This document shows positions 1 through 62,064 of a stretch of 64,000 nucleotides of DNA, one piece after another. This DNA comes from an uncultured Bacteroidales bacterium (GTDB lineage: Bacteria; Bacteroidota; Bacteroidia; Bacteroidales; Paludibacteraceae). Location of the stretch: positions 17,644 through 81,643 of the forward strand of contig CACZEL010000007.1 of the NCBI GenBank assembly GCA_902780235.1, given 5' to 3'. The first letter of the stretch is position 1. Every line of letters starts with the position of its first letter. Below the pieces are notes generated by a model. It ran no database searches, was not told the DNA's origin, and was given only the letters and a program-made list of their open reading frames with translations. Made by a program: the position numbers and the translations under genes.

Positions 1-162
1 ATCGAGCGGGTTGACCTTGCAGAAGGTGAAAAAGAGCATAAAGAAAATGAGCCACGGGAGGGTCGGGGCAAGGGGGAGGAATAGTTTATAGCCGAGGGCT
101 CCGATGAGCATGCCGAGCCAGAGGGCGTTGGAATCAAACAGACGTTTGATTTTATTTACCAT
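1..162 (-). CDS. Membrane transporter, bile acid:sodium symporter-like (partial, N-terminus only)
   Basis: Only the first 54 codons are present; the gene runs off the left edge. The start is the CAT at 160-162. The visible protein has a short basic start followed by two hydrophobic stretches and ends in FCKVNPLD. That pattern resembles the N-terminus of Bacteroidales proteins of the bile acid:sodium symporter (BASS) family, which begin with two membrane segments followed by a similar TFCKxxPxD turn. It lies 65 bp downstream of dusB on the same strand, separated by a tandem-repeat island, so it is probably the last gene of the gldD-dusB run. With so little sequence, another multi-span membrane protein remains possible. 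Confidence 0.5.
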   Translation of the reverse strand, partial: MVNKIKRLFDSNALWLGMLIGALGYKLFLPLAPTLPWLIFFMLFFTFCKVNPLD

Positions 163-236
163 TTTGTCATTTACCATTTGGTCATTTACCATTTGGTCAT
201 TTACGATTTAGTCATTTATTTGGTCATTTAGTCATT
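155..236. repeat. Tandem-repeat island, CATTTAC/CATTTGGT class
   Basis: About ten copies of a 7-8 bp unit alternating between CATTTAC and CATTTGGT fill the gap between dusB and the partial transporter. The island reaches into both flanking genes and covers the dusB stop region. The same class recurs at 16676-16720 and 25830-25870. Confidence 0.9.
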
Positions 237-1298
237 GGACCATTTGGCGACGATGTCATCCATGATGGCGAAGACGTCGGTGACGGTTTCGGCGCGGAGG
301 AGAGCAATGCGGGTTTGCTTGAAATCGAAGAGGCCTTTGAAGACGGGTGAGGCGGCAAAATGACGACGGGAATGGACGATGCCTTTGCGTTCGTCACCTC
401 CGCACCAAGCGATAGAGGCGAGGACATGTTCTTTCAAGACCGCAACTTTTTCGCTCATGGAGAAACCCCTCCCTGCCCCTCCCCCCAAGGGAGGGAAAGA
501 AGGATCAAGGGCTGCTTTCATCTCAGAAAATATCCAAGGGGCACCGAAGGTGGCACGACCGATCATGATGGCATCGACGCCGTAACGGTCGAAACACTCG
601 CGTGCGCGTTCGGGCGTACACACGTCCCCGTTCCCTATGATAGGTATGTGCATGCGCGGGTTGTTCTTCACTTCGCCGATGAGTGTCCAATCGGCTTCGC
701 CGCGGTACATCTGCGAGCGCGTACGACCGTGTATGGCGAGTTCTTGAATGCCGCAGTCCTGGAGTGCTTCCGCCAAAGAAACAATAAATGTTTCTTTTGC
801 TGTTAGCTTTTGGCTGTTAGCTGTTAGCCCTAATGGATTTACTCTTGGATGCAGGTCATTATCATCCCAGCCGAGGCGGGTTTTGCAGGTGACAGGAGTA
901 TGAACGGCGTTGACCACGGCACGGGTGATCTCGAGCATTTTGGGGACGTCTTTGAGGAGTCCTGCGCCGGCACCTTTACCGGCTACTTTCTTGACCGGGC
1001 AGCCGAAATTGATGTCGATGAAATCGGGTTTGGCTGTCTCGACGATCCGTGCGGCATCGGCCATCGACTCGGGGTCACGGCCGTAGATCTGAATGGCTAC
1101 CGGGCGCTCAGCATCATGGATGGTGAGTTTGCGGGTCGTGGAGGCGATGTCACGAACGAGTGCGTCGGCGTTGACGAACTCGGTATAGACACGATCGGCG
1201 CCGTACCGCTTACAGAGCATTCGGAAGGCGGGGTCGGTGACGTCCTCCATCGGTGCTAAATATAGGGGGAATCGCCCAAGATTGGTCGATGCATTCAT
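228..1298 (-). CDS. dusB: tRNA-dihydrouridine synthase, DusB type
   Basis: FMN enzyme that reduces uridine to dihydrouridine in the tRNA D-loop, in the cytoplasm. The 356-residue TIM barrel carries the family signatures in order: APMEDVTDPAFR near residue 15, INFGCPVKKVAGKGAGAG near 100 with the catalytic Cys, TCKTRLGW near 140, IHGRTRSQMYRG near 190, and the phosphate-binding IIGNGDV and MIGRATFGAPW. Family members are near 320 residues. The excess is two insertions encoded by repeats: residues about 157-168 (GTTAGC class) and 268-278 (a GC-rich CTCCC/GGGAG palindrome). Neither touches a signature. The ATG overlaps the stop of the upstream HD-phosphohydrolase gene, so translation is probably coupled. 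Confidence 0.92.
   Translation of the reverse strand: MNASTNLGRFPLYLAPMEDVTDPAFRMLCKRYGADRVYTEFVNADALVRDIASTTRKLTIHDAERPVAIQIYGRDPESMADAARIVETAKPDFIDINFGCPVKKVAGKGAGAGLLKDVPKMLEITRAVVNAVHTPVTCKTRLGWDDNDLHPRVNPLGLTANSQKLTAKETFIVSLAEALQDCGIQELAIHGRTRSQMYRGEADWTLIGEVKNNPRMHIPIIGNGDVCTPERARECFDRYGVDAIMIGRATFGAPWIFSEMKAALDPSFPPLGGGAGRGFSMSEKVAVLKEHVLASIAWCGGDERKGIVHSRRHFAASPVFKGLFDFKQTRIALLRAETVTDVFAIMDDIVAKWSND
464..497. repeat. GC-rich palindromic repeat inside dusB
   Basis: A CCCTCC...GGGAGGG imperfect palindrome is inserted in frame in dusB and encodes a Pro/Gly-rich stretch (FPPLGGGAGRG) near residue 270. It differs in type from the AT-rich tandem islands. Confidence 0.7.
798..830. repeat. 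Tandem-repeat island inside dusB, GTTAGCT class
   Basis: Copies of TGTTAGC/TTTTGGC type units, in frame, encode LTANSQKLTAKE on the minus strand. The same class lies inside pcrB (4158-4193), twice in mfd, and before the porin gene (10835-10860). Confidence 0.85.
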
Positions 1299-3193
1299 TT
1301 ATTCAGGGTAGGATAGGTGATACGATGATGGTTCATGGCGGTGAGGCGGGAGACAAAGACACGACGGATGTCTTCGACATCCTTGAAGGAGAGCGGTGTC
1401 TCGGCGAATTGTCCGTCAGCTATCTGGCTGTCTATCATGAGGTTGACGGCCTTGGCGATCGAGGCTTCGGAGAAGTCGGTCAGGCTACGCGAACGGGCTT
1501 CGATAGCGTCCGCCATCATGAGGATGGCTCCTTCTTTGGTGGACGGTTTGGCACCCGGATAGCGGAAGAGGGACTCGTCTATTTTCTCGTTCGGGTGCGC
1601 GTTACAATAGGTGTTGTAGAAATAGCGCACGAGTGAGGTGCCATGATGGGTGGTGATGAAATTGATGATGACCTCGGGCAGATGGTTTCTGCGGGCTATC
1701 TTCTCACCTTCGGCGACATGTGAGATGACCACTTGTGCGGCATCGCGCGGGTCCATGGAGAGGAGCGGGTTCTCTGCGCCTGTCTGGTTCTCGACGAAAT
1801 AGAGCGGATCGGTCATCTTACCGATGTCATGGTATAGTGCGCCGGTGCGAACGAGCAACGCATTCGCGCCGATGGCTTTGGCTGCTTCGGCGGCGAGGTT
1901 GGAAACCTGCATCGAGTGCTGGAAAGTGCCGGGGGCACGTTCTGCGAGCGTGTGGAGCAGTTCGGAGTTGATGTCGGTCAGTTCGACAAGGGTGATGGAC
2001 GAGATGAAACGGAAGAGTTTCTCGAAACCGTAAATCAGACCGTAACAACCGATGGTGAGCAAGCCGCAGATGAAGAAATAGAGGTACATCCACGGATCGA
2101 TGGACGAGAAGACGCCTGTCTGTGCGAAGGTGAGGGCGGTGTAGGCAAGCGTTTGCGCGAGGAATATCCATGCGGCTGTCTGAACGAGTTGGGCGCGGCG
2201 TGTCATGTCCGAGAGGGATGAGACGGCTACCATGCCGACTACTATCTGGATGAAGAAGAACTCCACAGGCGCGGGTACGATGATGGAAGCGATGAGGATG
2301 GTGGTAAAATGCAAGAAGAGGGCAGTGCGCGAATCGAAGAAGACGCGCGTCAGGATGGGTACCCACGCGAAGGGGATGAGATAGACGGTGAGGTTAAAGC
2401 GCAGGGCAAGGCACGCGAGGGCGATGACGATGAAGATCTGGAGCGCAAAGAAAAGGACGGTGGAGTTACTTCTCAAATAGGATATACGGAAGACGTATAA
2501 ATAGATGACAAAAAGGCTGAGGAAGAGGAAGACGAGCATGGCTTCTCCGAGGATGGAGAGAGTGCGCTGACGATGGCCGAGCGTCTCATCTTCGTACGAA
2601 CGGCGAAGGGATTGCAGGATCTGGTAGTCACGGTCGGTGACTATCTCCCCTTTGTCAATGATTTTCTCGCCTTTCTGGACAAGCCCCATGGTAGGCGAGA
2701 GGGTAGAGAGAAGTTTGTCCCGCATTTCCATCGTTCGTGCGGTATCGAGGACGAGGTTGGTCGTGATCTCGTAGCCGTATTTGGCGTACGCGGACTTGGG
2801 GGTGAAGATTTCTGAAATAGGATATTTTGTTTGGTTGATGGTGATTCGCGAGTATCCTTCGGCTTTGAGCCATTCCATGTTGTCGAGCGGGATGACTTTC
2901 ACTTCGCGTTGTACACGCGGGATGTACTTGAAGTAAGGCGCGAAGGTAGAGAGGAGCTGTTGCTGCTCCTTGGTCATCTGGTCGTCGGTTTTGTAGATGG
3001 GGAAGTCAAAGTCGGCGGTGAGGGTAGCGTAACCCCACGGTTTGCCGATCTCGTAGTGGTAGCGGAAGGCGTTGTTATAGCGCGGGAACATGAGGACGAG
3101 GACAACCGCAAGGAGCACGAATACACTCAAACGGAGAATCGTTTTCGTGTATTTGGCATTTGTGATTTGTGATTTAAGATTTGAAATTTTCAT
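1295..3193 (-). CDS. 7TM-HD family phosphohydrolase (HDIG domain, PgpH-like)
   Basis: Membrane phosphohydrolase of 632 residues. Order of parts: one N-terminal membrane segment (about 17-37), an extracytoplasmic domain (about 40-205, 7TMR-HDED type), about seven hydrophobic segments (210-405), then a cytoplasmic HD domain with GALYHDIGK near residue 450, HVAEGEK, and THHGT. Proteins of this architecture include PgpH of Listeria, a cyclic di-AMP phosphodiesterase; the substrate here is inferred from that. The first residues (ISNLKSQITNAK) are encoded by a TTTGTGAT repeat island that reaches the start codon. It sits between pcrB-tadA and dusB, with 1-4 bp junctions on both sides, so all are likely co-transcribed from the gldD promoter. 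Confidence 0.88.
   Translation of the reverse strand: MKISNLKSQITNAKYTKTILRLSVFVLLAVVLVLMFPRYNNAFRYHYEIGKPWGYATLTADFDFPIYKTDDQMTKEQQQLLSTFAPYFKYIPRVQREVKVIPLDNMEWLKAEGYSRITINQTKYPISEIFTPKSAYAKYGYEITTNLVLDTARTMEMRDKLLSTLSPTMGLVQKGEKIIDKGEIVTDRDYQILQSLRRSYEDETLGHRQRTLSILGEAMLVFLFLSLFVIYLYVFRISYLRSNSTVLFFALQIFIVIALACLALRFNLTVYLIPFAWVPILTRVFFDSRTALFLHFTTILIASIIVPAPVEFFFIQIVVGMVAVSSLSDMTRRAQLVQTAAWIFLAQTLAYTALTFAQTGVFSSIDPWMYLYFFICGLLTIGCYGLIYGFEKLFRFISSITLVELTDINSELLHTLAERAPGTFQHSMQVSNLAAEAAKAIGANALLVRTGALYHDIGKMTDPLYFVENQTGAENPLLSMDPRDAAQVVISHVAEGEKIARRNHLPEVIINFITTHHGTSLVRYFYNTYCNAHPNEKIDESLFRYPGAKPSTKEGAILMMADAIEARSRSLTDFSEASIAKAVNLMIDSQIADGQFAETPLSFKDVEDIRRVFVSRLTAMNHHRITYPTLNK
3157..3192. 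repeat. Tandem-repeat island at the N-terminus of the HD-phosphohydrolase
   Basis: Units of the TTTGTGAT/TTTAAGAT type encode residues 2-12 of the protein and reach its ATG. The first membrane segment starts directly after the repeat-encoded part. Confidence 0.8.
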
Positions 3194-4362
3194 TATCTTT
3201 TCGCTTTAAAAAATTCTTGTATGAGGGCGCGGCACTCGTTTTCGAGTACGCCGGCGGTGACAGTTGCTTTGGGATGGAAGGCGCGTGGTGCGTAGGTTTG
3301 GTAGCCTCGCTTGGGGTCGGGTGCACCATAGACGATTCGGCTTATCTGCGCCCAGCCGATGGCTCCTGCGCACATAGGGCAGGGTTCGACGGTGACGTAA
3401 AGGGTGGCGTCTGGGAGGTATTTGCCGCCGAGTGTCTGGCTCGCGGCGGTGATGGCTTGTATCTCCGCGTGGGCGGTGACGTCAGCGAGGGTCTCGGTGA
3501 GGTTGTGTCCGCGACCGATGATCTGGTTTTGCGAAACGATGACACAGCCGATGGGGATCTCATTAGAGGATAGCGCTTTATGCGCCTCGCTCAAAGCGAG
3601 ATTCATATATTTTTCGTCGTCATTACGTAATGACGTCATGTCGTTATGACGACAGAATTTTTCCAATTCCTCCGGATGTTCCTCGAAGTGGTTTCCGATG
3701 ACGACGATGTCGGCGCCGGCTTGGTAAGCGGCGTGCATGGCTTCGGGGGTGCGGATCCCGCCTCCGACGATGAGGGTGACGGAAACGGCTTCGCGCACGG
3801 CTTTGATGATGTCGGTTGAGACGGGGTTGATGGCGCCTGAACCGGCTTCAAGGTAGATGGCTGTTTTGCCCATCAGTTCGGCCGCTATGCAGGTGTCCAA
3901 AATGGTTTGAAGGTTTGAAGGTTTGATGGGCTTTGTGCCCGTTACTTTCATCGTTGATGTTTCGACACCGCCATCGATGAGGATGTAGGCTGTCGGGATA
4001 CACTCTATATGTGAATCGTGAATACGACGCGCAGAGGCAATTTGTTGATCGACAAGGTATTCGGGGTTACGTCCGGAAAGGAGAGAGAGGTACAGGATGG
4101 CATCTGCTTCGGGGGTGAACTGGGAGGCGTTGCCGGGGAAGAGGATGATGGGGATATTGGCTGTTGGCTTTTGGCTATTAGCTGTTAGCTTTTCTTTGAG
4201 GGCACGGATGAAATCGGTGGTGTCGCCGCCGGTGGAACCGCCGACGAAGATGAAGTCGGGATGACACAAGTCCGTGATGGGAAGTGCGTCGAGGTTGGCT
4301 TTCTCGGGATCAAGCAAAAGGGCAAGACCTTTGGTTATTTTCGCATTTTCACATTTTCGCAT
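3193..4362 (-). CDS. Fusion: GGGP/heptaprenylglyceryl phosphate synthase (PcrB family) + tRNA adenosine deaminase (TadA)
   Basis: One 389-codon frame carries two enzymes. Residues about 12-240 are a PcrB/GGGPS TIM barrel: LDPEKA, FIFVGGSTGG, ILFPGN, YLEAGSGA, IVGGGIRTPE and ADIVVIGN near 225. This family joins a prenyl diphosphate to glycerol-1-phosphate. Residues 253-389 are a complete TadA-type deaminase with zinc motifs HAE and PCPMCAGA, which makes inosine at tRNA wobble position 34. The normal TadA start would be Met253 (3604-3606). The join (residues about 236-250) is encoded by a CATTACGT/TGACGTCA repeat, and two further insertions (residues about 57-69 and 146-153) and the N-terminus also come from repeats. 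The ATG lies 4 bp after the gldD stop. Confidence 0.9.
   Translation of the reverse strand: MRKCENAKITKGLALLLDPEKANLDALPITDLCHPDFIFVGGSTGGDTTDFIRALKEKLTANSQKPTANIPIILFPGNASQFTPEADAILYLSLLSGRNPEYLVDQQIASARRIHDSHIECIPTAYILIDGGVETSTMKVTGTKPIKPSNLQTILDTCIAAELMGKTAIYLEAGSGAINPVSTDIIKAVREAVSVTLIVGGGIRTPEAMHAAYQAGADIVVIGNHFEEHPEELEKFCRHNDMTSLRNDDEKYMNLALSEAHKALSSNEIPIGCVIVSQNQIIGRGHNLTETLADVTAHAEIQAITAASQTLGGKYLPDATLYVTVEPCPMCAGAIGWAQISRIVYGAPDPKRGYQTYAPRAFHPKATVTAGVLENECRALIQEFFKAKR
3615..3655. repeat. Repeat island forming the PcrB-TadA linker
   Basis: Units of TTACGTAA/TGACGTCA/TGTCGTTATGACG type encode the linker CRHNDMTSLRNDDEK. A very similar island lies between deoD and kdsB (43812-43860), where it is not coding. 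Confidence 0.85.
3903..3928. repeat. Repeat island inside pcrB, GGTTTGAA class
   Basis: Three copies of an 8 bp GGTTTGAA-like unit in frame encode KPSNLQT within the PcrB domain. A related CTTCAAAC island lies in the MsbA-like gene at 57650-57690. Confidence 0.75.
4158..4193. repeat. Repeat island inside pcrB, GTTAGCT class
   Basis: In-frame units of the GTTAGCT/ATTAGCT type encode KLTANSQKPTAN between the GGSTGG and ILFPGN strands of the PcrB barrel. Confidence 0.85.
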
Positions 4363-5170: not shown

Positions 5171-6307
5171 ATGAAAGAAAATCTCAATAACTATTGTGTG
5201 ATCATGGCGGGAGGCGTCGGAAGTCGTTTCTGGCCGTTCAGTAGGGAGGAGAAACCGAAGCAGTTTTTGGATTTCTTCGGTACGGGTAGAAGTTTGCTGC
5301 AGATGACGGTAGATCGTTTTCGTCCGATCGTTCCGATCGAGAACATGTATATCGTGACGAATGTGGCGTACAAGCAGTTGATCATGGAGCAGATCCCGGA
5401 CTTGAAGGAGGTTCAGATTTTATGCGAGCCGGCCCGGCGTAATACGGCGCCGTGTATCGCTTATGCAACGGCGCATATCCGGGCGTTGTGTCTGAAACGA
5501 GCAGGCTTGACAGCAAAGAATCAGGATTGGTCGAGACCGGAGATGCAGGCGAATATTGTGGTGGCGGCGAGTGATCATCTGATTTTAGAGGAAGAGAAAT
5601 TCCGCCAGACGATCTTGAAGGCGTTTGATTTCGTGAGTAAGAACAATGCGATCTGCACGTTGGGAATGAATCCGACGAGACCGGAGACGGGGTATGGGTA
5701 TATCCAGTATTTAAAGAATTCAGAATTCAGAATTCAGAATTCAGAAGGTATTTTTCCGGTGAAGACGTTTACGGAGAAGCCGAATCTGGAGATGGCGAAG
5801 GTGTTCTTGGAGAGCGGTGATTTTCTGTGGAACTCGGGAATCTTCATTTGGAATCTTCAGACGATCAGTGAGGCGTTCCGGTACTTGTTGCCGGCAGTAG
5901 CTGATCGGTTTAGAGAGGGAGAGTTGCTGATGGGTACGGAGAAGGAAGAGGATTTCATTGAGCAGATCTTCCCGAAATGTCCGAATATTTCGATTGACTA
6001 CGGCATCATGGAGAAGGCGGATAATGTGTATGTTATCCCGTCGAGTTTCGGTTGGAGCGATCTGGGTACATGGGGTAGTTTGTATGAGTTGAGTGAGAAA
6101 GACGAGCATCGCAATGTGAGTCTGCACAGCGAAACTCATTACTATGATGCAGAAGGGAATATTGTTGTTCTGGAGCCGGGTAAGGTGGCGATCGTACAAG
6201 GCGTAAACGATATGATCATTGTGGAGGAGAAAGGTGCTTTGTTGGTATGCCGGAAAGATCAAGAGCAACGAATCAAAGAATTCACAAATAATTTACTTAA
6301 TACTTAA
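5171..6307 (+). CDS. manC: Mannose-1-phosphate guanylyltransferase
   Basis: Makes GDP-mannose from mannose-1-phosphate and GTP for glycans. The 378-residue protein opens with IMAGGVGSRFWPFSREEKPKQFLDF, the nucleotidyltransferase signature, followed by ARRNTAPCIAYA, ASDHLI, PTRPETGYGYI, FTEKPN, LWNSGIF and SIDYGIMEKADNVYVI. There is no C-terminal isomerase (PMI) domain, so it is the short monofunctional form. Residues about 181-193 (KNSEFRIQNSEG) are a repeat-encoded insertion after the substrate-binding YGYIQY. The ATG at 5163 is followed by an immediate stop, so 5171 is the start. The gene ends 7 bp before the debranching enzyme, which makes it first in the glycogen run. Confidence 0.92.
   Translation: MKENLNNYCVIMAGGVGSRFWPFSREEKPKQFLDFFGTGRSLLQMTVDRFRPIVPIENMYIVTNVAYKQLIMEQIPDLKEVQILCEPARRNTAPCIAYATAHIRALCLKRAGLTAKNQDWSRPEMQANIVVAASDHLILEEEKFRQTILKAFDFVSKNNAICTLGMNPTRPETGYGYIQYLKNSEFRIQNSEGIFPVKTFTEKPNLEMAKVFLESGDFLWNSGIFIWNLQTISEAFRYLLPAVADRFREGELLMGTEKEEDFIEQIFPKCPNISIDYGIMEKADNVYVIPSSFGWSDLGTWGSLYELSEKDEHRNVSLHSETHYYDAEGNIVVLEPGKVAIVQGVNDMIIVEEKGALLVCRKDQEQRIKEFTNNLLNT
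5715..5746. repeat. Repeat island inside manC, AATTCAG class
   Basis: Four perfect copies of the 7 bp unit AATTCAG, in frame, encode NSEFRIQNSE. Four exact copies suggest a recent expansion. Confidence 0.95.
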
Positions 6308-10864: not shown

Positions 10865-12811
10865 TTGAAGAAACGATTTCTTATAGTATTAGTGCTGTTG
10901 GCAGCGACCCTTGTGGCCGCTGCCAAACAGCCTCGTATCCGGACCGAGGTGAAGACCTGGCAGATGCCCGGTTATACGGCCGTGGCGGATACGATCGCTT
11001 TTAAGGATACGGCGATGCTGAACTACCACGATGTGGATGTACAGCAGTTGTATTCGATCAGCAGTGCAACGAACGGCAACGTGCTGGTGTCGGCGATAGA
11101 GAGCCGAGTCGTGCAAGATCGGTTAAAGACGATAGACGATCCGTTTGCAGTGAGTCTGACGCCCTATGTGGTGACGCCTCAACAGCAGCGGTTCTTCAAC
11201 ACGACGACTCCTTTCTCGACCGTGGCATACAAGAAAGGCTTTGTGACCGGACACGAGGAGAACGATATCGATTTTCTTTTTACCGGCAATATCGGCAGGG
11301 CGGTGAACTTGGGTCTGGAGATGGACTACCTGAATTCGGTAGGACACTATGCCAATACGGCAGGTAAGTTATTTAGAGGATCCGTTTGGGGCAGTTATAA
11401 CGGCGCTCACTATACGATGCATGCCGCTTTCGGTTGGAGCAGCCTGTCGCATTTTGATAATGGCGGTTTGGAAGACGTGACGCAGTTGAAGAGTAGTTTG
11501 AACCCGGAGGATCTGCCGGTACGAATGCAGGCAATGACGGGGTATCGGTACTTGAGCGGATACCTGCATAACCAATACGCCATTACGAAAGAGAGGGAGT
11601 ATCACGACACGATCGAAGTCGTGGAAGACGGAAGACGGGTGAAGCACGACACGATCAAGGTGGAGTACATCCCGCTGATGACGTTCAGTCATGTGTTCGA
11701 GACGAATAACTCGAACAGGAGGTATGTGGAGCAACGCGCGGATCAGGGATTCTATGATAATATTTATTATGACTCGATCGCGAGCCATGACACTACGGAT
11801 GTGCTAACGATTCGTAATACAGTCGCGGTGACGTTCTGCGAAGCGTATAATACGAAGTTGAAATTCGGTATCACGGCGTTTGCGATGAACGAGTGTCAGC
11901 GGTTCTTGAACGACAGCGTACCGTACGATCCGGACAGTATCTTCGACTATAAATGGACGAACAACACGTTCGTGGGCGGTGCAATCCACAAGCACAGCGG
12001 TGAGAATGTTCATTATCATGTGGAAGGACAAGTGTGCGTGTTGGGATATAAGATCGGTGAGTTCGACGTGCATGGTAAGCTGGAGACGAAGTTCAATGCC
12101 GGAGGCTATCCGTTGATGATCGGAGCAAGGGGATATGCGAAGAGTGAGACTCCGAACTATTATCTACAACATTTCCGCTCGAATCATGTGCGCTGGGAGA
12201 ATAATTTCGGGTTTACGTACCGGTTCTTAGGCGGCGCAACGGTAGCTTACGGGTATGAATGGTTGAAGCCGAGGATTGATTTCAGTTTTGAGAACCAGAC
12301 CAATCCGATTTATGTGTCGAGTGCGGACTGGAAACCGCGGCAGTTTAACGGGAATGTGCAGATCATCACGGGCGATGTGGGCTTGGACTTGACAACGCCT
12401 TGGGTGAACTTGGAGAACCGCGCGGTGATCCAGCACAGCACGAACGACAGCGTGATGCCTGTTCCGACGGTGATCCTGCAACACCGGTTGTATTACCACG
12501 GGACATGGTTCAAGGCGCTTGATGCCCAGATAGGTGTCGATCTGCGCTATTTTACGAAATATAACGCGCCGGTTCTTTGTCCAGCAACGGGTATGTTCGC
12601 TACCCAACAAAATGTGAAGATAGGTAATTATCCATGGATCAATGTATATGCCAATTTCTATGTACGATCGATCCATTTGCGCTTCTTTGCGCAGTACCAA
12701 CATATAAACCACCTTTTTATGAAAAATAACATTGACTATTTGACGATGCCCAATTACCCGACGAACCGCGATGTGTTCCGCGCGGGGTTGGCATGGCACT
12801 TTTATAATTAA
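10865..12811 (+). CDS. Putative porin (Porin_10-type outer-membrane barrel)
   Basis: 648-residue secreted protein. The start is TTG at 10865, giving KKRFLIVLVLLAATLVAAAKQ, a clear signal peptide; the first internal ATG would remove it. The mature N-terminus is followed by PFSTVAYKKGF and DFLFTGNIGRAVNLGLEMDYLNSVGHY, which match the Bacteroidales putative-porin family (PF14121-like). The rest consists of alternating amphipathic strands, and the protein ends FRAGLAWHFYN, with the aromatic C-terminus of barrel proteins. Cargo is unknown. It lies between the glycogen genes and the Clp ATPase and could be co-transcribed with either. Confidence 0.75.
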   Translation: MKKRFLIVLVLLAATLVAAAKQPRIRTEVKTWQMPGYTAVADTIAFKDTAMLNYHDVDVQQLYSISSATNGNVLVSAIESRVVQDRLKTIDDPFAVSLTPYVVTPQQQRFFNTTTPFSTVAYKKGFVTGHEENDIDFLFTGNIGRAVNLGLEMDYLNSVGHYANTAGKLFRGSVWGSYNGAHYTMHAAFGWSSLSHFDNGGLEDVTQLKSSLNPEDLPVRMQAMTGYRYLSGYLHNQYAITKEREYHDTIEVVEDGRRVKHDTIKVEYIPLMTFSHVFETNNSNRRYVEQRADQGFYDNIYYDSIASHDTTDVLTIRNTVAVTFCEAYNTKLKFGITAFAMNECQRFLNDSVPYDPDSIFDYKWTNNTFVGGAIHKHSGENVHYHVEGQVCVLGYKIGEFDVHGKLETKFNAGGYPLMIGARGYAKSETPNYYLQHFRSNHVRWENNFGFTYRFLGGATVAYGYEWLKPRIDFSFENQTNPIYVSSADWKPRQFNGNVQIITGDVGLDLTTPWVNLENRAVIQHSTNDSVMPVPTVILQHRLYYHGTWFKALDAQIGVDLRYFTKYNAPVLCPATGMFATQQNVKIGNYPWINVYANFYVRSIHLRFFAQYQHINHLFMKNNIDYLTMPNYPTNRDVFRAGLAWHFYN

Positions 12812-12841
12812 GGTGAAAAGTGAAAAGTGAAAGGTGAAAGA
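12811..12841. repeat. Repeat island before the clp gene, GTGAAAA class
   Basis: Four copies of GTGAAAA/GTGAAAG directly precede the ATG of the Clp ATPase. They create in-frame GTG codons that could be mistaken for starts. Confidence 0.9.
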
Positions 12842-16608: not shown

Positions 16609-16612
16609 TAAC

Positions 16613-16647
16613 GAGTTAACGAATGAAAGAGTTAATGAGTTAATGAT
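16613..16647. repeat. Repeat island after rpoD, GAGTTAAT class
   Basis: GAGTTAAC/GAAAGAGTTAATGAGTTAAT type units lie between the rpoD stop and its terminator. Confidence 0.65.
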
Positions 16648-16904: not shown

Positions 16905-16939
16905 TGAATAATGAATAGTTAATAATTAATAATTAATAT
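16904..16939. repeat. Repeat island, AATAATTAAT class
   Basis: GAATAAT and TTAATAA units separate the barrel gene stop from the small ribbon-helix-helix gene and supply its upstream codons. Confidence 0.8.
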
Positions 16940-42264: not shown

Positions 42265-42269
42265 TATCT

Positions 42270-43769: not shown

Positions 43770-43811
43770 AATTTGTGTTTTTTTTGGTTAATATTGTTTT
43801 TTTTCTTTTTG

Positions 43812-43861
43812 TCGTTATTACGTTATTACGTTATTACGTCATGACGTCATGTCGTTATCCA
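43812..43861. repeat. Repeat island between kdsB and deoD, TTATTACG class
   Basis: Units of TTATTACG and ATGACGTC; they include the kdsB stop codon. The same class forms the PcrB-TadA linker. Confidence 0.9.
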
Positions 43862-44604: not shown

Positions 44605-47600
44605 ATTTCGTTTCGTTCTATTTTGCTCAATAAGGTGATCGCACCAGCGATCGTTTTGACGTTCGTGATCGTCACCATGCGTCTGCCGGTCGGCAGGCCT
44701 TTCTTGTCTTTCTCTTCATGCAGCAGGCAGCGTTCGGGGCGTGTAACCGCATACTGAACAATGTTCCCGAACTGTTGCGACTGCCAGTAAGCATCGCGGT
44801 GCTGGACGAGGTAGAGCGTCATACGCTCGCCTTTCAGCAGGATCTTCTCTACGCCCAAGCGGCAACAGATCCATCGTAACCGAACGACCTCTAACAGTTC
44901 TTCTGCAGGTTCGGGCAGTACGCCGAAGCGGTCGATCAACTTCTTGCGGAAGTCCAATAACTGTTCTTCCGAACGGATGCCATCCAGTTCGCGGTAGAGC
45001 GTGATACGCTCGCTCACGTTCTCGATATAGTCCGTCGGGAAGCAAACGGCAATATCCGTCTCCAGCTGACTGTCGCTGCACCAAGCGTGGCTATTGGCTG
45101 TTAGCTCTTGGCTATTAGCTATTGGCTCTAACCCTTCTTCCTCTCTCAATTCTTCCACCGCCTCATTCAGTATCCGCTGATAGGTCTCGTAACCGAGGTC
45201 GGCAATGAAGCCGGACTGTTCGGCACCCAACATGTTTCCTGCGCCGCGGATATCGAGGTCTTGCATGGCCAGGTTGAAGCCCGAACCCAGTTCGGCGAAC
45301 GTGCTCAATGCTTCGAGGCGCCGTCTCGCATCTTCGGTCAGTAACTCCTTCGGCGGTGCGATGAGGTAGCAGTATGCCTTTCTATTGCTGCGGCCCACAC
45401 GACCGCGTAACTGGTGCAGATCGGCCAGACCGTACTTGTCGGCGCTGAAGATGAGGATCGTGTTCACGTTCGGTATATCGACGCCGGACTCGATGATGGT
45501 GGTCGCGAGCAGGATGTCGTAATCGTAGTTGATGAACGCTTCCAGACGCTCTTCCATCTCGCCGGCAGGCAGTTGACCGTGCGCCGTCACGATACGTGCT
45601 TCGGGGCATAACTTCTGTATCTTATGCTCGATACGCGGCAGCATCTCGATGCGGTTATTGACGATGAAGATCTGTCCGTTACGCGCCATCTCCAGATCGA
45701 TCGCCTCTTTGATAAGGTCCTCGTCGTCGATGGTGATCAGTTCGGTCTGAACCGGATAGCGGTTCGGCGGCGGGGTCGTCATGATACTCAGATCGCGGGC
45801 TCCCAAGAGGGAGAACTGCAAGGTTCGCGGGATAGGCGTTGCCGTCAGCGTCAGTACATCCACGTTCGCCCGAAGACTCTTCAGTTTCTCTTTGGCTGCG
45901 ACGCCGAACTTCTGTTCCTCGTCGATGATGAGCAAACCGAGGTCATGCCATTTGACGCTCTTGCCGATGAGTTTATGGGTGCCGATGAGGATGTCTATCT
46001 TACCCGCCTCCAAGTCCGCCAAGATCTCTTTCATCTCCTTCGCGGATTTCAAACGGCTCAGGTACTCGATGCGCACCGGCATGTTCTTCATTCGCTCGCG
46101 GAAGGTGTTGTAGTGCTGCAAGGCCAAGACGGTCGTCGGTACCAAGACGGCTACTTGTTTGCCGTCTGTCGCTACCTTGAACGCTGCCCGCATCGCTACT
46201 TCGGTCTTACCGAATCCTACGTCACCGCACACCAATCGATCCATTGGCATCGGGCTCTCAAGGTCGTGCTTAACGTCCGCGGTAGCCTTCGCCTGATCCG
46301 GCGTGTCCTCGTATAAGAACGACGCTTCCAACTCATGCTGCATGTAACCGTCGGGCGAGTACGCAAATCCTTTCTGTTGCTTGCGCGTCGCATAGAGACG
46401 AATGAGGTCGCGGGCGATGTCTTTTACTTTATCCTTGGTGCGCTCCTTGAGTCGTTCCCATTGACCGCTGCCAAGTCGGGCGATCGTCGGTTCTGAACCC
46501 TCACGCCCTTTGTACTTACTGATGCGGTGGAGGTTATGGATGGAAACGAACACGTTGGCGCCGTCGCGGTAATTGAGTTTGATCATCTCCTGCGGTTTAC
46601 CGTTCACAGGGGTTGTCACCAGCCCGCCGAACTTAGCGATACCGTGATCGCTGTGCACGACGTAGTCGCCTATCTGCAGTTGGTTGATCTCGCGGAGGGT
46701 GATGATAGCCTTTCCGCGTCGCGCGTTCTCACTCGACATCGTCACGCGGTGATAGCGTTCAAAAATCTGATGATCGGTGTAGCAGCAGATCTTCAATCCC
46801 TTATCCATAAACCCCTCGTGCAAGGTGGCTTGAATGCCGATGAAGGTCGTTGGTCGTTGGTCATTAGTCGTTAGCTCTTGGCTTTCAAAGATCGCCTTCA
46901 AGCGGTCGAGCTGCTTCTGTTGCTCGGCAAGGATATAGATCTTATAGCCGTCCTCGATATGCTTTCTGAGGTCATCGGTAAGGATGTCGAACTGCTTATG
47001 GAAGATCGGCTGCGGGATCGTGTCGAACGTGATCTTCGTGTGCGCGGGGAAGGTGCTCTTCTCGGCAATCTCGATGGTTCGCTTTGATTCTAGGTTGCCT
47101 AGGTTTCCTAGGACTCCTAGGCCGTCTAGTTTAAATCGAACGATGGAAAAATCGTTCGATACAAACACAAAATCCTCCGTCAGATAGTCCACGATAGAAG
47201 CATCATTTGCATCATTCCCACCATTTGCATCATTCGAAGAACCGACGATTTCTGCAGAATTGATTCGGTTCTTGGACAACTGATCCTCGATATCAAACTC
47301 TCGGATCGAGTCGATCTCGTCGCCGAAGAAGTCCAGACGGTAGGGGTTGTCATGGCTATAACTGTATATATCCACGATCGATCCTCGCACAGCATACTGT
47401 CCGGGTTGGAACACAAAATCCACCCGCTCAAATCCCAGTTCCGCTAATTGCTGACCAAGCTTGGTCTGCTGAATCGTCTCTCCTGTCTTTAGCGTCATGC
47501 TGACAGCCGACAACTCTTCCTTCGCCGGTACGGCTTCTGCCACCGCTTCGGGATACGTCACAATGATATGAGGCATCGTTGTGAGCGTTTCTGTTCGCTG

Positions 47601-47882
47601 TATGATAGCTGCATCATCAATGGTCCGTCTGCGTTTCGCTGCAGGAAAGAATCCTGCGTTTACGCCTACCGCCTTCAGGTCCCCATACAGGTACTGCGCT
47701 GCTTCTGCATTGTCAAAGATCACTAACATCGGCCGCGTCACATGCGCCAGTGTAAGCGCGCGTGCGCTCGCGTGTAAACCGCTCAAAAGAAGATGCTTGT
47801 CTCCTCTAACCCCTAACCGCTCACCGATCACCTTTATTTCCGGGTGCTCTCCGAACAGTATATTCAAATCTCTGATTTGCAT
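44601..47882 (-). CDS. mfd: Transcription-repair coupling factor
   Basis: Removes stalled RNA polymerase and recruits UvrA. 1093 residues from the ATG at 47880-47882; an upstream in-frame extension covers the promoter and is rejected. Order: UvrB-like domains (1-400), RNAP-interaction domain (about 425-500, YVVHSDHGIAKFGGL, GANVFVSIHNLHRISKY), translocase with Walker A GDVGFGKTEVAMRAA near 553 and DEEQKFGV near 656, LTLTATPIPRTL, RGRVGRSNRKAYCYL, then TRCF C-domain. Four insertions come from repeats: residues about 217-230 (NDANGGNDAND), 253-266 (GVLGNLGNLES), 335-345 (QELTTNDQRPTT) and 918-932 (PIANSQELTANSHAW). Confidence 0.95.
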   Translation of the reverse strand: MQIRDLNILFGEHPEIKVIGERLGVRGDKHLLLSGLHASARALTLAHVTRPMLVIFDNAEAAQYLYGDLKAVGVNAGFFPAAKRRRTIDDAAIIQRTETLTTMPHIIVTYPEAVAEAVPAKEELSAVSMTLKTGETIQQTKLGQQLAELGFERVDFVFQPGQYAVRGSIVDIYSYSHDNPYRLDFFGDEIDSIREFDIEDQLSKNRINSAEIVGSSNDANGGNDANDASIVDYLTEDFVFVSNDFSIVRFKLDGLGVLGNLGNLESKRTIEIAEKSTFPAHTKITFDTIPQPIFHKQFDILTDDLRKHIEDGYKIYILAEQQKQLDRLKAIFESQELTTNDQRPTTFIGIQATLHEGFMDKGLKICCYTDHQIFERYHRVTMSSENARRGKAIITLREINQLQIGDYVVHSDHGIAKFGGLVTTPVNGKPQEMIKLNYRDGANVFVSIHNLHRISKYKGREGSEPTIARLGSGQWERLKERTKDKVKDIARDLIRLYATRKQQKGFAYSPDGYMQHELEASFLYEDTPDQAKATADVKHDLESPMPMDRLVCGDVGFGKTEVAMRAAFKVATDGKQVAVLVPTTVLALQHYNTFRERMKNMPVRIEYLSRLKSAKEMKEILADLEAGKIDILIGTHKLIGKSVKWHDLGLLIIDEEQKFGVAAKEKLKSLRANVDVLTLTATPIPRTLQFSLLGARDLSIMTTPPPNRYPVQTELITIDDEDLIKEAIDLEMARNGQIFIVNNRIEMLPRIEHKIQKLCPEARIVTAHGQLPAGEMEERLEAFINYDYDILLATTIIESGVDIPNVNTILIFSADKYGLADLHQLRGRVGRSNRKAYCYLIAPPKELLTEDARRRLEALSTFAELGSGFNLAMQDLDIRGAGNMLGAEQSGFIADLGYETYQRILNEAVEELREEEGLEPIANSQELTANSHAWCSDSQLETDIAVCFPTDYIENVSERITLYRELDGIRSEEQLLDFRKKLIDRFGVLPEPAEELLEVVRLRWICCRLGVEKILLKGERMTLYLVQHRDAYWQSQQFGNIVQYAVTRPERCLLHEEKDKKGLPTGRRMVTITNVKTIAGAITLLSKIERNEI
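45089..45131. repeat. Repeat island inside mfd, GTTAGCT class
   Basis: In-frame ATTGGCT/GTTAGCT/ATTAGCT units encoding PIANSQELTANSHAW, just before the C-terminal TRCF domain. Confidence 0.85.
46849..46880. repeat. Repeat island inside mfd, GTCGTTA/GTTGGTC class
   Basis: GGTCGTT, GGTCATTA and GTCGTTAG units encode SQELTTNDQRPTTF within the N-terminal half of Mfd. Confidence 0.8.
47085..47127. repeat. Repeat island inside mfd, CCTAGG class
   Basis: Units of about 9 bp around CCTAGG encode LDGLGVLGNLGNLES; five partial copies. Confidence 0.85.
47195..47233. repeat. Repeat island inside mfd, CATTTGCAT class
   Basis: Four 9 bp CATCATTTG/CATTCCCAC units encode NDANGGNDAND. Confidence 0.85.
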
Positions 47883-50017: not shown

Positions 50018-50745
50018 CGGCGGAATTCTGCTAAGACAATAGCGGTCGCTATAGAAACGTTGAGGCTTTCCGAAGTCTCAGCGTTTTTTGGATATGAGGG
50101 GATACGAATCGGGTTGGTGATAAGTTTCCGTACTTCCTGCGAAATGCCGTTGCCCTCGTTGCCCATGACGATGATATTCGTCGAAAGTCGAAAGTCGAAA
50201 GTCGAAAGCTCTTCGTACATATCCTTACCTTCTAACAAAGTACCGATAATTTTTAATTCGTAATTTTTAATTTTTAATTCCTTCAGCCATGCCGGAAGGT
50301 CCATATAGTGGACGCGCACGCGGGACAAAGCACCCATCGTGGCTTGTACGACCTTGGGGTTATAGCAGTCAGCGGTGTCAAGCGAGCAGACGATTTCGTG
50401 GACGCCGAACCAGTCGCAGGTACGAATGATAGTTCCCAAATTCCCGGGATCCTGGATGCCGTCGAGGGCAAGAACTAAATCACAAATCTCAAATTTGAAA
50501 TCACAAATGGTGTGTTTTTTGAACACACCTATCACTCCCTGCGGTGTCCTGAGCCCGCTCATCTGTTCGATCTCAGTGCGGCTGGCGTTTTCGCCCTTGC
50601 GGTAGAGGTGAACCAACTCAAAAGACTTGGTCAGTTCGGACACACATTTATCTCCTTCGGCCACGAACAGACCGAGTTCGTCACGGAACTTTTTCTGCTG
50701 CAAGGAACGCACTAATTTGATCTGCGCTTTCGAAATTTTCTCCAT
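50014..50745 (-). CDS. TrmH-family rRNA/tRNA 2'-O-methyltransferase
   Basis: 243 residues from the ATG at 50743-50745. N-terminal substrate domain ([31 protein letters not shown]), then the SPOUT knot with [35 protein letters not shown] and [22 protein letters not shown], the SAM-binding loops. Three repeat-encoded insertions interrupt it: residues about 78-91 ([16 protein letters not shown]), 154-166 ([13 protein letters not shown]) and 180-190 ([10 protein letters not shown]). The earlier in-frame start would sit upstream of the promoter. Convergent with thrS, with four overlapping bases. Confidence 0.9.
50178..50209. repeat. Repeat island inside trmH, GTCGAAA class
   Basis: Four copies of 7 bp GTCGAAA, in frame. 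Confidence 0.92.
50248..50286. repeat. Repeat island inside trmH, AATTTTT class
   Basis: Units of TAATTTTTAATTCG / TTTTTAATT encode [10 protein letters not shown]. Confidence 0.9.
50474..50516. repeat. Repeat island inside trmH, AATCACAA class
   Basis: Four 8 bp AATCACAA/ATCTCAAA/TTTGAAAT type units encode [11 protein letters not shown]. Confidence 0.85.
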
Positions 50746-56570: not shown

Positions 56571-58430
56571 ATTGTAAATACGTTGCGTCGTTTCATCCCT
56601 CCTTACAAGGGGCTGATGGTGCTGAATATCCTGTTCAACCTCTTCTCCACGGTGCTGTCTCTTTTCTCGTTCGCGGCCATCATCCCGGTGCTGCGGATCC
56701 TGTTCGGCTTGACGGCGGTGGATGTACAATGGACGGATATCCATACGGTCAGCGGACTGCAAGAGATCTTGGCGGCCTTGCGGTCGAACCTCTATTACCT
56801 GCTCAACGACCAGATCGCCTTGCATGGCTCGAGTTATGTGCTGCTGATGTTAGGCCTCTTCCTCGTAGTGATGACCGGACTCAAGTGCGGTGCGGCATGG
56901 TTGGCAAACTACTACATGGTGCCGATTCGTACGGGTGTCTTACGGGACCTTAGACAGCAGCTGTACGATAAGATCCTCTCCCTGCCGATGGGTTATTTCA
57001 CTGAGGCGCGTCGAGGCGATGTCATCTCGCGTATGACGAACGATGTGAACGAAGTGGAAGCATCTATCATGTCGGCGCTGGATATCCTGTTCAAAGACCC
57101 GGTGATGATCCTTGTCTATCTCGTCACGCTATTCGTCATCTCGTGGCAGCTGACCCTCTTCGTGCTCATCCTCATGCCGATAGCGATCTTCTTCATCGGC
57201 CGTATCGGACGGAGTCTGAAGAAAGCGTCCACGCGCGGACAGGAGCAGAACGCGGAGATCCTCTCCTCGGTCGATGAGACGCTCCTGGGTCTGCGGGTCG
57301 TGAAAGGATTCAATGCGCAGGATAAGTTACGCAGCCGTTTTGACACGCTCATTAATGCGACACGTGCGACCTTCAACCGTATCAATCGCCGATATTATCT
57401 CGCGCATCCGCTCTCGGAGTTCCTCGGCACCGCCCTCATCGCCATCATCCTGTGGTTCGGCGGTCTGCTGATCCTCTCCGATCATGCAACGATCGATGCA
57501 TCGACCTTTATCTATTATCTCGTCATCTTCTACTCCATCATCAACCCCTCCAAGGATCTCAGCAAAGCCGCTTACGGCATTCGCCGAGGCATGGCGTCGC
57601 TGGAGCGTATCGATGCGGTATTGAACACGGAGTCGAATATCATCGAACCCGCCAACCCTCAAACCCTCCAACCTTCAAACTTCCAAACCGGTCTTGCCTT
57701 CGAGCATGTCTCTTTCCGGTACCAACCGGAACGGGAGGTGCTGTCCGACATCAATCTGACGATCCCCAAAGGGAAGACGATCGCTTTGGTCGGGCAGTCG
57801 GGTAGCGGTAAGACCACGATGACCGATCTTGTGCCGCGGTTCTATGACCCGACATCAGGCCTCATCACGCTGGATGGCATCGATATCCGTCGTTTCACGA
57901 CCCACGACCTGCGCGCCCTCATGGGTATCGTCTGCCAAGAACCCGTGCTCTTCAATGATACGGTCTATAACAACATCACTTTTGGCGTCGATACCACCCA
58001 ACCTGCGCCGAACGGTATGACCTGGCAGCAGGCTGTCGAGCAGGCCGCGCGTATCGCCAATGCCCATCAGTTCATCATCGACATGCCCGAAGGGTATCAA
58101 ACGGTTATCGGTGACCGAGGAAGCCGTCTCTCCGGTGGTCAACGTCAACGGCTCTCTATCGCGCGAGCTATCCTCAAGAACCCGCCGATCCTCATCCTCG
58201 ATGAAGCGACCTCGGCTCTCGATACCGAGTCCGAGAAACTCGTGCAGGAAGCGCTTGAGCACTTGATGGCAGAACGTACGACCCTCGTCGTCGCCCACCG
58301 TCTCTCCACCATCAAGCATGCCGACCTCATCTGCGTGCTCCACGAAGGCCGGATTGTTGAACGCGGTACCCACGATGACCTCTACGCCCTCGGCGGCTAT
58401 TATACCAAACTAGTCGATATGCAACAATAA
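56556..58430 (+). CDS. ABC transporter, MsbA-like lipid flippase (fused permease and ATPase)
   Basis: 624 residues. Six membrane segments (about 15-325), then an ATPase domain with GQSGSGKTTMTDLVPRFYDP (Walker A, near 410), LSGGQRQRLSIARA (signature), ILILDEATSALD (Walker B) and VAHRLSTI (H loop). In Bacteroidales this gene near lpxK is taken to flip lipid A core. Residues about 365-379 (EPANPQTLQPSNFQT) are a repeat-encoded insertion in the linker between membrane and ATPase domains. Located 15 bp after lpxK. Confidence 0.9.
   Translation: MVHSKIVNTLRRFIPPYKGLMVLNILFNLFSTVLSLFSFAAIIPVLRILFGLTAVDVQWTDIHTVSGLQEILAALRSNLYYLLNDQIALHGSSYVLLMLGLFLVVMTGLKCGAAWLANYYMVPIRTGVLRDLRQQLYDKILSLPMGYFTEARRGDVISRMTNDVNEVEASIMSALDILFKDPVMILVYLVTLFVISWQLTLFVLILMPIAIFFIGRIGRSLKKASTRGQEQNAEILSSVDETLLGLRVVKGFNAQDKLRSRFDTLINATRATFNRINRRYYLAHPLSEFLGTALIAIILWFGGLLILSDHATIDASTFIYYLVIFYSIINPSKDLSKAAYGIRRGMASLERIDAVLNTESNIIEPANPQTLQPSNFQTGLAFEHVSFRYQPEREVLSDINLTIPKGKTIALVGQSGSGKTTMTDLVPRFYDPTSGLITLDGIDIRRFTTHDLRALMGIVCQEPVLFNDTVYNNITFGVDTTQPAPNGMTWQQAVEQAARIANAHQFIIDMPEGYQTVIGDRGSRLSGGQRQRLSIARAILKNPPILILDEATSALDTESEKLVQEALEHLMAERTTLVVAHRLSTIKHADLICVLHEGRIVERGTHDDLYALGGYYTKLVDMQQ
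57650..57692. repeat. Repeat island inside the MsbA-like gene, CTTCAAAC class
   Basis: Units CCCTCAAAC, CCTCCAACC, TTCAAACTT and CCAAACC, in frame, encode ANPQTLQPSNFQT. Confidence 0.88.
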
Positions 58431-58454: not shown

Positions 58455-59519
58455 ATGAAGGGAAAAGTGTTATTAGGAATGTCCGGTGGCATTGACTCTA
58501 CGGTGAGTGCGATGTTGCTTTTGGAGCAAGGCTACGAAGTAGTCGGCGTCACCTTTCGTACCTACGACTCGATGAAAGAGTCGTGTATCGCCAAAGAGAA
58601 AGGCTGCTGCACGATTGACTCGATCATGGAAGCCAAGCATAACGCCGAACGCATGGGTTTTGAGCATCATATCGTGGACTTCCGCGATACCTTCCGGCGT
58701 TGTGTCATTCAGAACTTCATCGACGAGTACATGGCGGGTCGAACGCCGAACCCCTGCGTGATCTGCAACAGCACCATCAAATGGGGCGAGATGCTGCACC
58801 TCGCCGATGAGATGGGCTGCGACTATATCGCAACAGGTCATTATGCCCGCATCGCCGAGCGCGACGGACATGTCTATCTGCGGATGGGTGCGGATACGAA
58901 GAAAGACCAGACCTATTTTCTTTGGATGCTCACCGAAGAGCAACTCAAACGCACCATCTTTCCGCTCGGCGACTATACCAAAGAGCAGGTACGCGAGATA
59001 GCGCGTCAGCATGGGTATGAGAAACTGGCGGTCAAACGCGAGAGTCAGGAGATATGCTTCATCCCGGACGATGACTACCGTGCTTTCCTGCGCGCGAACG
59101 TACCCGATTATAATGAGCGCGTACGCGCAGGCGAGTATATAGACGCAAACGGCAAGGTGCTCGGTCATCACGAAGGCTATGTCAATTACACCATCGGTCA
59201 ACGCAAAGGCCTCGGTATCGCCCTCGGTCATCCCGCATATATCACCCATATCGATGCCGCCACCAACCGCATTACCCTCGGCACCAACGATGACATGTAT
59301 GCCACGGAGCTAAAGTTCCGACCAATGAACAATGTACAATATACAATGTACAATTCGCCGTTAACGGCGAAGGTCCGCTATCGCTCTCAAGCCGTTCCCA
59401 TCAAAAAGATAGACGGGAATTGCATTGAATTTGCAACTCCCGTCTGGGGTATCACGCCCGGTCAATCGGTCGTGCTCTATTCCGACGATTTAGTCGTCGG
59501 AGGTGGAATCATTCTGTAA
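58455..59519 (+). CDS. mnmA: tRNA-specific 2-thiouridylase MnmA
   Basis: 354 residues from the ATG at 58455; the repeat upstream gives only alternative non-ATG codons. VLLGMSGGIDSTVSAML holds the PP-loop. Cys near 100 (PNPCVICNSTIKW) and the second active Cys near 195 (ESQEICFIPDDD) make the thiolation pair. GHYARI and FRYRSQAVP-type KVRYRSQAVPI are in the tRNA-binding domains. It forms s2U34 in tRNA Lys, Glu and Gln. Residues about 291-303 (NNVQYTMYNSPLT) are a repeat-encoded insertion. Confidence 0.96.
   Translation: MKGKVLLGMSGGIDSTVSAMLLLEQGYEVVGVTFRTYDSMKESCIAKEKGCCTIDSIMEAKHNAERMGFEHHIVDFRDTFRRCVIQNFIDEYMAGRTPNPCVICNSTIKWGEMLHLADEMGCDYIATGHYARIAERDGHVYLRMGADTKKDQTYFLWMLTEEQLKRTIFPLGDYTKEQVREIARQHGYEKLAVKRESQEICFIPDDDYRAFLRANVPDYNERVRAGEYIDANGKVLGHHEGYVNYTIGQRKGLGIALGHPAYITHIDAATNRITLGTNDDMYATELKFRPMNNVQYTMYNSPLTAKVRYRSQAVPIKKIDGNCIEFATPVWGITPGQSVVLYSDDLVVGGGIIL
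59325..59361. repeat. Repeat island inside mnmA, ACAATGT class
   Basis: AACAATGTACAATATACAATG: four 7 bp ACAATGT/ACAATAT units, in frame. Confidence 0.9.
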
Positions 59520-61927: not shown

Positions 61928-61945
61928 ACTTCTCGAATTTCGCTG

Positions 61946-61976
61946 CAAAGGTACAACAATTTTTTCACATACGCAA
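61946..61976 (-). promoter_or_regulatory. Promoter of SulP
   Basis: Minus-strand TTGCGTATGT (from 61976), 19 bp, TACCTTTG (61953-61946) followed by CAGCG. Confidence 0.8.
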
Positions 61977-62064
61977 GAAAAAGTTGCAAAATTTTAAGAT
62001 TATTATGTGCATAATGGCATTTAGACGACAAAATAAAGAAAATTTTACGAATTTTGTGGAAATA

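Follow-up and report, generated by a model that had tools for sequence, protein, structure and literature searches.

Short heptad arrays of preferred size and limited vocabulary in an uncultured Bacteroidales genome and its genus

How does a bacterial genome come to carry dozens of short tandem arrays whose unit length is held near seven bases while the unit itself differs from one array to the next? The question is raised by a 64,000-nucleotide stretch (the whole of which is called the window here) of contig C7 (CACZEL010000007.1, positions 17,644 to 81,643) in a metagenome-assembled genome (MAG) of an uncultured Bacteroidales bacterium, 2.28 Mb in size and 78.6% complete. The genes gldD and tamL among those of the window place the host in Bacteroidales, and the nearest ThrRS sequences are those of the uncultured Bacteroidales RUG13776 (95%) and of a Paludibacteraceae MAG (93%). 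A cyanobacterial origin was rejected because the relatives of GldD, TamL and ThrRS are Bacteroidales. The arrays were followed through the window, 464 kb of the host MAG and a genus set of 178 genomes, the host MAG included. They typically measure about 32 bases and draw on a limited vocabulary, two properties that make their origin testable, and sister species often have a changed or wholly different unit at a given place.

Islands were counted with a run-scoring script at score thresholds of at least 9 and at least 13, and the window was compared with 30 dinucleotide shuffles and 30 codon-plus-intergenic shuffles. At the lower threshold, the window holds 37 islands of period 7, 8 or 9 (26, 7 and 4, respectively), all within 1..62000, versus at most 6 in any single shuffle; at the higher threshold, 25 islands stand against a shuffle mean of 0. 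An earlier note, made from the letters of the window, had claimed more than thirty islands with 7-9 bp units, and these counts, far above those of shuffled sequence, bear it out. Every unit named there is present, CATTTGGT as part of a 15-bp unit and CCTAGG as part of a 9-bp unit. Periods 5 and 6 contribute 0 and 2 islands in the window. Exact runs of at least 9 matches number 18 at lag 7 (0.1 in shuffles), with none at lags 2-6, and Tandem Repeats Finder (TRF) returned 80 rows at a score of at least 30, some arrays being listed twice. Across the 464 kb of the MAG, the higher threshold yields 0, 1, 124, 17, 9, 8, 16 and 4 islands for periods 5, 6, 7, 8, 9, 10, 11 and 12, respectively. Period 7 stands out, and there are hardly any units of 2-6 bp.

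CRISPR arrays have repeats of ~21 bp or longer and long unique spacers, and simple microsatellites have units of 1-6 nt. The islands belong to neither class, as the earlier note had said: their units are 7-9 bp, their spacers a few nucleotides, and periods 2-6 are nearly absent (cas genes were not searched for). With tandem 7-nt units in excess of shuffled sequence, they resemble instead the heptanucleotide short tandemly repeated repetitive sequences and long simple sequence repeats (STRR/LSSR). The STRR of heterocystous cyanobacteria are defined by a cyanobacterial host; the host here is a Bacteroidales bacterium, and the likeness to cyanobacterial heptads stands as an analogy only. Many islands sit inside genes: among 30 period-7 islands of the window, a set from a slightly different scoring run from the 37-island count, a hand-made gene table puts 14 wholly in a gene, 12 across a gene edge and 4 between genes.

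The arrays have a preferred size. Period-7 lengths in the host are bimodal, with a background at 14-20 bp, 14 arrays at 21-25 bp and 84 at 29-34 bp; a single order-3 Markov control produced no period-7 island longer than 22 bp. The genus array set comprises 462 distinct period-7 arrays from 251 loci, some of which were picked for a family called F1, with the pattern (GTCRAAA)4G. Slightly more than half of these arrays (236/462) span five words (29-35 bp), that is, four full units and a partial one, and the preference is thus for four units. Median lengths at genus loci are 32, 34, 34 and 43 bp for periods 7, 8, 9 and 11. When period-7 arrays were sorted by place using simple ORF calls (8.4% noncoding sequence), 93 were intergenic, 122 coding and 40 at gene edges, and 47, 65 and 17 of these, respectively, measured 29-34 bp; the length tail is longer in intergenic arrays than elsewhere. 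Because the three groups share the size mode, reading-frame selection is not its cause, and the in-frame explanation was rejected on the intergenic arrays in particular. Dispersed as STRR/LSSR are, the arrays are also about 8-fold enriched in intergenic sequence when edge arrays are left out. Those lacking GG or CC keep the size rule (138/234 at 29-34 bp, versus 86/228 of those with GG/CC), which makes G-quadruplexes unnecessary for the four-unit preference and not its cause here; GGG or CCC occurs anywhere in 43 of the 462 arrays, far from a G-tract in each unit.

The internal plan is equally regular: a word and a spacer are repeated four times, and the array closes on a word. Words are conserved and spacers variable. 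When neighbouring units were compared within 232 unique 27-35 bp arrays, the interior mismatch was 0.073 in the word versus 0.179 in the spacer, and a rotation null gives no difference (standard deviation 0.019, maximum 0.061 of 1000). When 235 period-7 arrays of 27-35 bp were folded, 42% had zero energy, the mean z was -0.58 and 15% fell below -2, and one repeat flanking a RAYT-like transposase gene folded at -12.4 kcal/mol. The heptad arrays do not behave as palindromic elements, although some words (GAATTC, AATT) are palindromes on their own.

The vocabulary of words is limited. The 138 period-7 arrays in the 464 kb of the host fall into 50 classes, the largest with 18 members, whereas two nulls (500 draws) gave a mean of 116-121 classes, never fewer than 105, and no class with more than 9 members; the recurrence of classes at unlinked sites, stated in the earlier note, is borne out. 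Words are also shared within genomes. Across the 48 genomes with arrays, same-class pairs within a genome number 422 versus 193 when permuted, with 0 of 2000 permutations as high. Most of this signal stems from the genome of the window, and when it is left out 20 like pairs stand against 9 (2 of 2000 permutations). Same-class pairs in the host lie closer together than expected within 2 kb (12 versus 4.8) and 5 kb (20 versus 10.4), with no clear clustering at 20 kb, and some of the closer pairs are local duplications. In the host, an AAAGGTG array lies near an AAAATTG array of opposite orientation at L154 (~1326-1400), and such composite repeats also lie at L161 (~11221-11300) and L163 (~11388-11510 and 12852-12975).

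Among genomes, the arrays are unevenly spread. F1 occurs in 84 of the 178 genomes, the count per genome running from 0 to 98 matches, and its reversed-pattern control gave 8 matches in all, in four genomes. Five-word ATTG arrays were found in 55/72 genomes (up to 196 matches) and GGTTA arrays in 39/72 (up to 202). The three pattern counts use overlapping windows, so that one long array counts several times, and for ATTG and GGTTA the reversed pattern is not a true null, since the reversed words are heptad words themselves. Density within the genus ranges from 0 to ~4 arrays per 10 kb in samples of at least 19 kb; small samples mislead, as in G043, which has none in 20 kb but 41 ATTG-array matches genome-wide. 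Around thrS, the contigs of other Bacteroidales include array-rich ones (L035, L051, L053, L071, L080, and L098, rich with 8-mers), and the close host relatives L032, L033 and L046 are poor in arrays at this locus. At L098:15116-15399, in another Bacteroidales MAG, lies a 35-unit array of 8-bp units with the word AAC and variable spacers.

Turnover is evident between sister genomes. Arrays of period 7, 8, 9 or 11 were scored in four pairs (G061/G130, G191/G138, G007/G173 and G086/G106) with ~96% identity over aligned stretches. From G191 to G138, 16 sites comprised 3 identical, 2 with up to three substitutions, 10 more different and 1 without anchor; the reverse comparison gave 3, 3, 8 and 1 of 15. 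The corresponding figures were 6, 4, 5 and 2 of 17 sites from G061 to G130, and 6, 5, 5 and 1 of 17 in the other direction. All four sites differed from G007 to G173, one of them via a 2.6-kb stretch between anchors, and in reverse 2 sites differed and 2 lacked an anchor. For G086/G106, 1 of 6 sites was identical, 2 were different and 3 had no anchors. Orthologous islands are accordingly variable, and copy number differs between close relatives as in STRR/LSSR. Most differences are whole units (7, 14, 21, 35 or 11 bp) or whole replacements, with codon repeats in proteins making up a few; ordinary slippage accounts for the whole-unit steps. A replacement is seen at L256:11805, where a CAATTAC array corresponds to a TTTCAAC array in G138 with nearly identical flanks. 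At L256:3352, the replacement may be a unit-by-unit change of related words.

What could write such arrays? Patch-sized slippage synthesis combined with template switching between arrays is the explanation favoured here, although it is held tentatively, at somewhat less than an even chance. The size mode, the word/spacer pattern and the ending on a word fit repeated re-annealing of a 3' end, hence the preference for patch-sized synthesis, and shared words together with swaps call for some exchange between loci. Arrays would arise as ~30-34 bp patches, each made in a single step or a few, with fast turnover. During replication or repair, and through a presumed enzyme, a 3' end that closes on a word of 2-6 nt would slip back to another copy of that word at a distance of ~7 nt, less often 8, 9 or 11, copy the spacer and the next word, and run through this cycle about four times. 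Loops of at least 7 nt may escape mismatch repair and shorter ones may not, a step suggested by the lack of short units and by mutS being present. Existing arrays would then gain or lose whole units through ordinary slippage. Arrays sharing a word could prime on one another and become mutual templates, so that a genome would drift towards its favoured words, and such template use would let one array be replaced by another. Selection would retain arrays in gene junctions and tolerant protein loops. The earlier note had suspected a shared generator and a mechanism that spreads or copies the islands. Preferred size, limited vocabulary and within-genome word sharing speak for the former, for which no generator gene was found; word sharing and array swaps suggest, rather than demonstrate, the latter.

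Several observations weigh against this explanation. Spacer variation exceeds the misincorporation expected from one round of synthesis, and genomes differ widely in their dominant words, something that is not predicted by slippage alone. Arrays of up to 19 and 35 units occur in some other Bacteroidales, so the size rule is not universal. The sister pairs offered no clean empty-to-filled site in which the birth step could be observed, and some swaps may be imported alleles, as at L256:14522, where the flanks are 90-91% identical. The word test draws the array ends from the same data, a dependence that the rotation null removes only partly. Finally, some apparent copying signals are selection, as with the variant unit of F1 and its codon phase, and the ends of F1 are fixed (among 49 four-unit copies, A precedes 98% and C follows 73%), which is more like a discrete element.

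F1 deserves attention in its own right. Of its 55 copies, 49 lie in open frames that are 150 codons or longer, 45 of them in the orientation of the frame and distributed 27, 7 and 11 over the phases. The variant unit tracks codon phase (CGA to CAA), and the order of variant units, once taken as proof of copying, was withdrawn for that reason. The shortage of three-unit F1 arrays is biased, since the loci were partly chosen by the four-unit pattern. A scan over any length and offset found target-site duplications at no more than 4 of the 55 copies, with ~1 expected, and neither these nor inverted repeats in the F1 flanks show a convincing excess.

Fixed ends and dispersed families with unrelated flanks are what would be expected of non-autonomous mobile mini-elements of ~30 bp, pasted in trans by a transposase. 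This alternative is considered unlikely. Its best candidate is the RAYT-like Y1 (HUH) family, with profile matches in 131 of the 178 genus genomes, up to 9 each and 4 in the host. The family is present in 41/43 genomes with at least five F1 matches versus 90/135 others by hand count, and PF01797 in 8/14 rich versus 4/14 poor genomes under a sorting that is partly wrong. However, ATTG-array matches number 41 in G043 (100% complete) and 64 in G064 (98%), neither of which has a RAYT-like match, G124 (99%) also lacks a RAYT-like match but has 10 for F1, and G116 (98%) has 9 RAYT-like matches and none for the three array patterns. At 11 RAYT-like loci no period-7 array comes closer to the ORF than 959 bp, so that heptad arrays do not flank these genes; the 55 F1 copies have no convincing target-site duplication, and unit-by-unit size change is not transposition. 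RAYT-like transposases are thus associated with arrays, but array-rich genomes without them exist, and they are neither necessary nor sufficient. The ORFs themselves (L287-L297, for example L287:2549-3796) encode ~330-430 aa with weak PF01797 matches and a conserved HxH and Tyr; their conserved C-terminal part gave no Pfam match. By eye, some adjoin tandem palindromic repeats (for example L296), and 11-bp arrays adjoin two of them (L293, L294). In G018, an array of about ten 11-bp units, AAAGACTAACA, lies directly upstream of such an ORF (L293:3028-3138).

Another account is ordinary local slippage at chance seeds, with tolerance at weakly constrained sites and no exchange between loci; whole-unit length changes are indeed common between sisters, while unit variants are homogenised within arrays differently in each species (5005, 42257). 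It is nevertheless improbable: the nulls never approach so few classes as 50, words are shared within genomes, intermediate sizes are scarce, and swaps to unrelated units occur at ~96% identity. A further proposal, to which a similarly low probability is given, is a dedicated host process that writes heptad patches of ~32 bp at gene junctions and in protein loops, overwrites arrays, uses genome-specific words and also makes the four-unit heptads of Xanthomonas and Nostoc. A telomerase-like machine writing heptads from RNA or DNA templates at breaks is very unlikely; it would suit the several favoured words per genome and the fixed start and end of F1 with mostly four units (partly selected for four units), but reverse transcriptase PF00078 was found in only 7/28 genomes (5/14 sorted array-rich, 2/14 array-poor) and is absent from the complete G098, which has 55 F1 and 202 GGTTA matches. 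Least probable, if by little, is that the arrays are selected as functional sites, whether G-quadruplexes, protein-binding sites or translation-start context. The intergenic enrichment would agree with such roles, and the Xanthomonas and Nostoc heptads have been interpreted as G-quadruplexes (PMC4692102), but 234 of the 462 arrays lack GG/CC and keep the size rule better than those with it, several sites show a replacement of words between sisters, and many arrays lie within genes.

Of five gene families examined (MutS, Ku, reverse transcriptase, Y-family polymerase and RAYT-like transposase), none accounts for where arrays occur. mutS1 is above cut-off in 39/41 genomes, the host included, and a loss of mismatch repair was rejected on this count (MutL was not searched). 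Y-family polymerase PF00817, found in 10/13 array-rich and 5/10 array-poor genomes and absent from G043, is not required, and Ku had matches in 0/23 genomes. For each of reverse transcriptase, Y-family polymerase and Ku, one or more array-rich and essentially complete genomes lack the gene. The rich/poor sorting used for reverse transcriptase and PF01797 was based on F1 counts and small samples and is wrong for at least G043, G016 and G041, later found rich in ATTG arrays.

An excess of heptanucleotide repeats is already known in bacteria, and the arrays of this genus vary that theme. According to PMC4692102 and PMC4679880, a 2007 survey by Mrazek and co-workers found 7-nt units over-represented and scattered among prokaryote genomes and proposed polymerase slippage with a 7-nt footprint. 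The genus arrays share the over-representation and the scatter, and add to what these papers cite a size preference, a word/spacer structure, sharing within genomes and swaps between sisters. In Xanthomonas (GGGAATC) and Nostoc (GGGGA(C/T)T), PMC4692102 describes dispersed, mostly intergenic heptads with a four-unit preference linked to G-quadruplexes and with length and sequence varying between close relatives. The genus arrays are likewise dispersed, prefer four units and vary between relatives; where that work deals with one G-rich word, many words occur here, half of the arrays are without GG/CC and many are in genes. Marine Beggiatoaceae, cyanobacteria and a few Bacteroidetes carry TAACTGA direct repeats, which come in sets of two to six and mostly precede start codons, are patchy among relatives and are described as of no evident mechanism (PMC4679880). 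Genus arrays are similarly short, patchy and near gene starts, but the TAACTGA sets use one word, with related heptamers rarely repeated in that account, whereas the host genome has 50 classes among 138 arrays. As with the repetitive extragenic palindromic (REP) sequences and their RAYTs, the repeats are small and dispersed and RAYT-like genes occur in the genus; REPs, however, are palindromes, and the genus arrays are direct repeats that for the most part fold little and were not found beside RAYT-like genes. Literature searches on 7-bp or heptamer repeats in Bacteroidetes or rumen Bacteroidales retrieved none.

In what PMC4692102 and PMC4679880 say of origin, slippage is only a hypothesis or the mechanism is not evident. 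The genus provides 178 genomes, large natural variation, sister pairs at ~96% identity and quantitative rules with which any mechanism has to comply. A dedicated patch-writing process, if real, would generate short tandem arrays in bacteria generally. Arrays in conserved proteins such as Mfd are a fast source of in-frame loop variation: in the part viewed of an mfd codon alignment of 30 genus members, made via protein, in-frame loop insertions differ between species and consist of heptad arrays as well as palindromic and other short repeats (L171-L200). Table 1 lists the arrays of the window.

Table 1. Tandem arrays of the window, with their setting and, where recorded, the state in relatives or the method (G numbers denote genomes).
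Array	Position	Setting	Relatives or method
15-bp unit ATTTACCATTTGGTC (7+8)	154..236	3' end of dusB-like gene	TRF and gene match
Period 7, word TTRGCT	796..828	within dusB-like gene	TRF, run scoring
Period 7, ATTTGTG	3151..3189		
Period 8/16	3618..3651	residues 238-249 of ORF 3193-4362(-)	
Period 8, GGTTTGAA	3904..3929		G192: unrelated sequence, similar length
Period 7, TTGGCTG/TTAGCTG	4157..4193	in gene	G192: TAATTTG array at site
Period 8, ATTTTCGC	4337..4372	gene junction	
Period 7, AATTAAA	4914..4947	within gldD	
Period 7, AATTAAA	5005..5036	intergenic	G192: AATTGAA
Period 7, AGAATTC	5715..5746	within gene; top NCBIfam match GMP_PMI, under cut-off	
Period 7, AAAGGTG/AAAAGTG	12810..12840	spans gene junction	
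Period 8, TAACGAGT	16609..16646	intergenic	
Period 7, AATTAAT	16903..16942		
Period 8, TACTGGTC	24580..24614	intergenic	
Period 9/18	26881..26915	intergenic	
Period 7/14	34316..34355	gene junction	
Period 7, AAAACTG/AATACTG	36286..36319		similar, different or no array
Period 7, CTAATCR	36774..36810		
Period 7, AACTATC/AACTTTC	39855..39894	intergenic	
Period 7, AACTTTC	42257..42314	gap between yidC and next ORF	AATCTTC in G192, AACTTTA in G158
Period 8, CGTTATTA	43798..43858		G192: AACTTTC array; G182, G155, G003: none
Period 7, TTGGCTA	45088..45127	in mfd	other repeats at same loop
Period 7, GGTCGTT	46845..46874	in mfd	
Period 9, word CTAGG	47090..47129	in mfd	
Period 7	47803..47832	in mfd	G192 differs by one base
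Period 7, (GTCGAAA)4G, F1 family	50180..50208	in RlmB-like methyltransferase gene	
Period 7, AATTAAA with an AATTACG unit	50247..50279	minus strand	
Period 7, AAATTGT	53677..53719	gene junction	
Period 8, CGTTAAAA	55483..55520		
Period 7, ACATGGT	56539..56568	gene junction	
Period 8, AACCCTCA	57646..57688	within gene	
Period 7, AAAGTTG/AAAGGTG	58429..58454	gene junction	
Period 7, ACAATGT	59320..59354	within gene	
Period 7, AATTATT	60178..60209	gene junction	

The reading frame at 3193-4362(-) matches geranylgeranylglyceryl phosphate (GGGP) synthase over residues 10-239 and the tRNA adenosine deaminase TadA over residues 246-389, and its period-8 array lies exactly at the joint of the two parts, as if bridging two genes. 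Several 10-11 bp tandem repeats with differing units are clustered within ~460 bp at 63469-63929 of the window. A tmRNA at 30156-30546, with the predicted tag GNYEYALAA, adjoins a tRNA-Ala.

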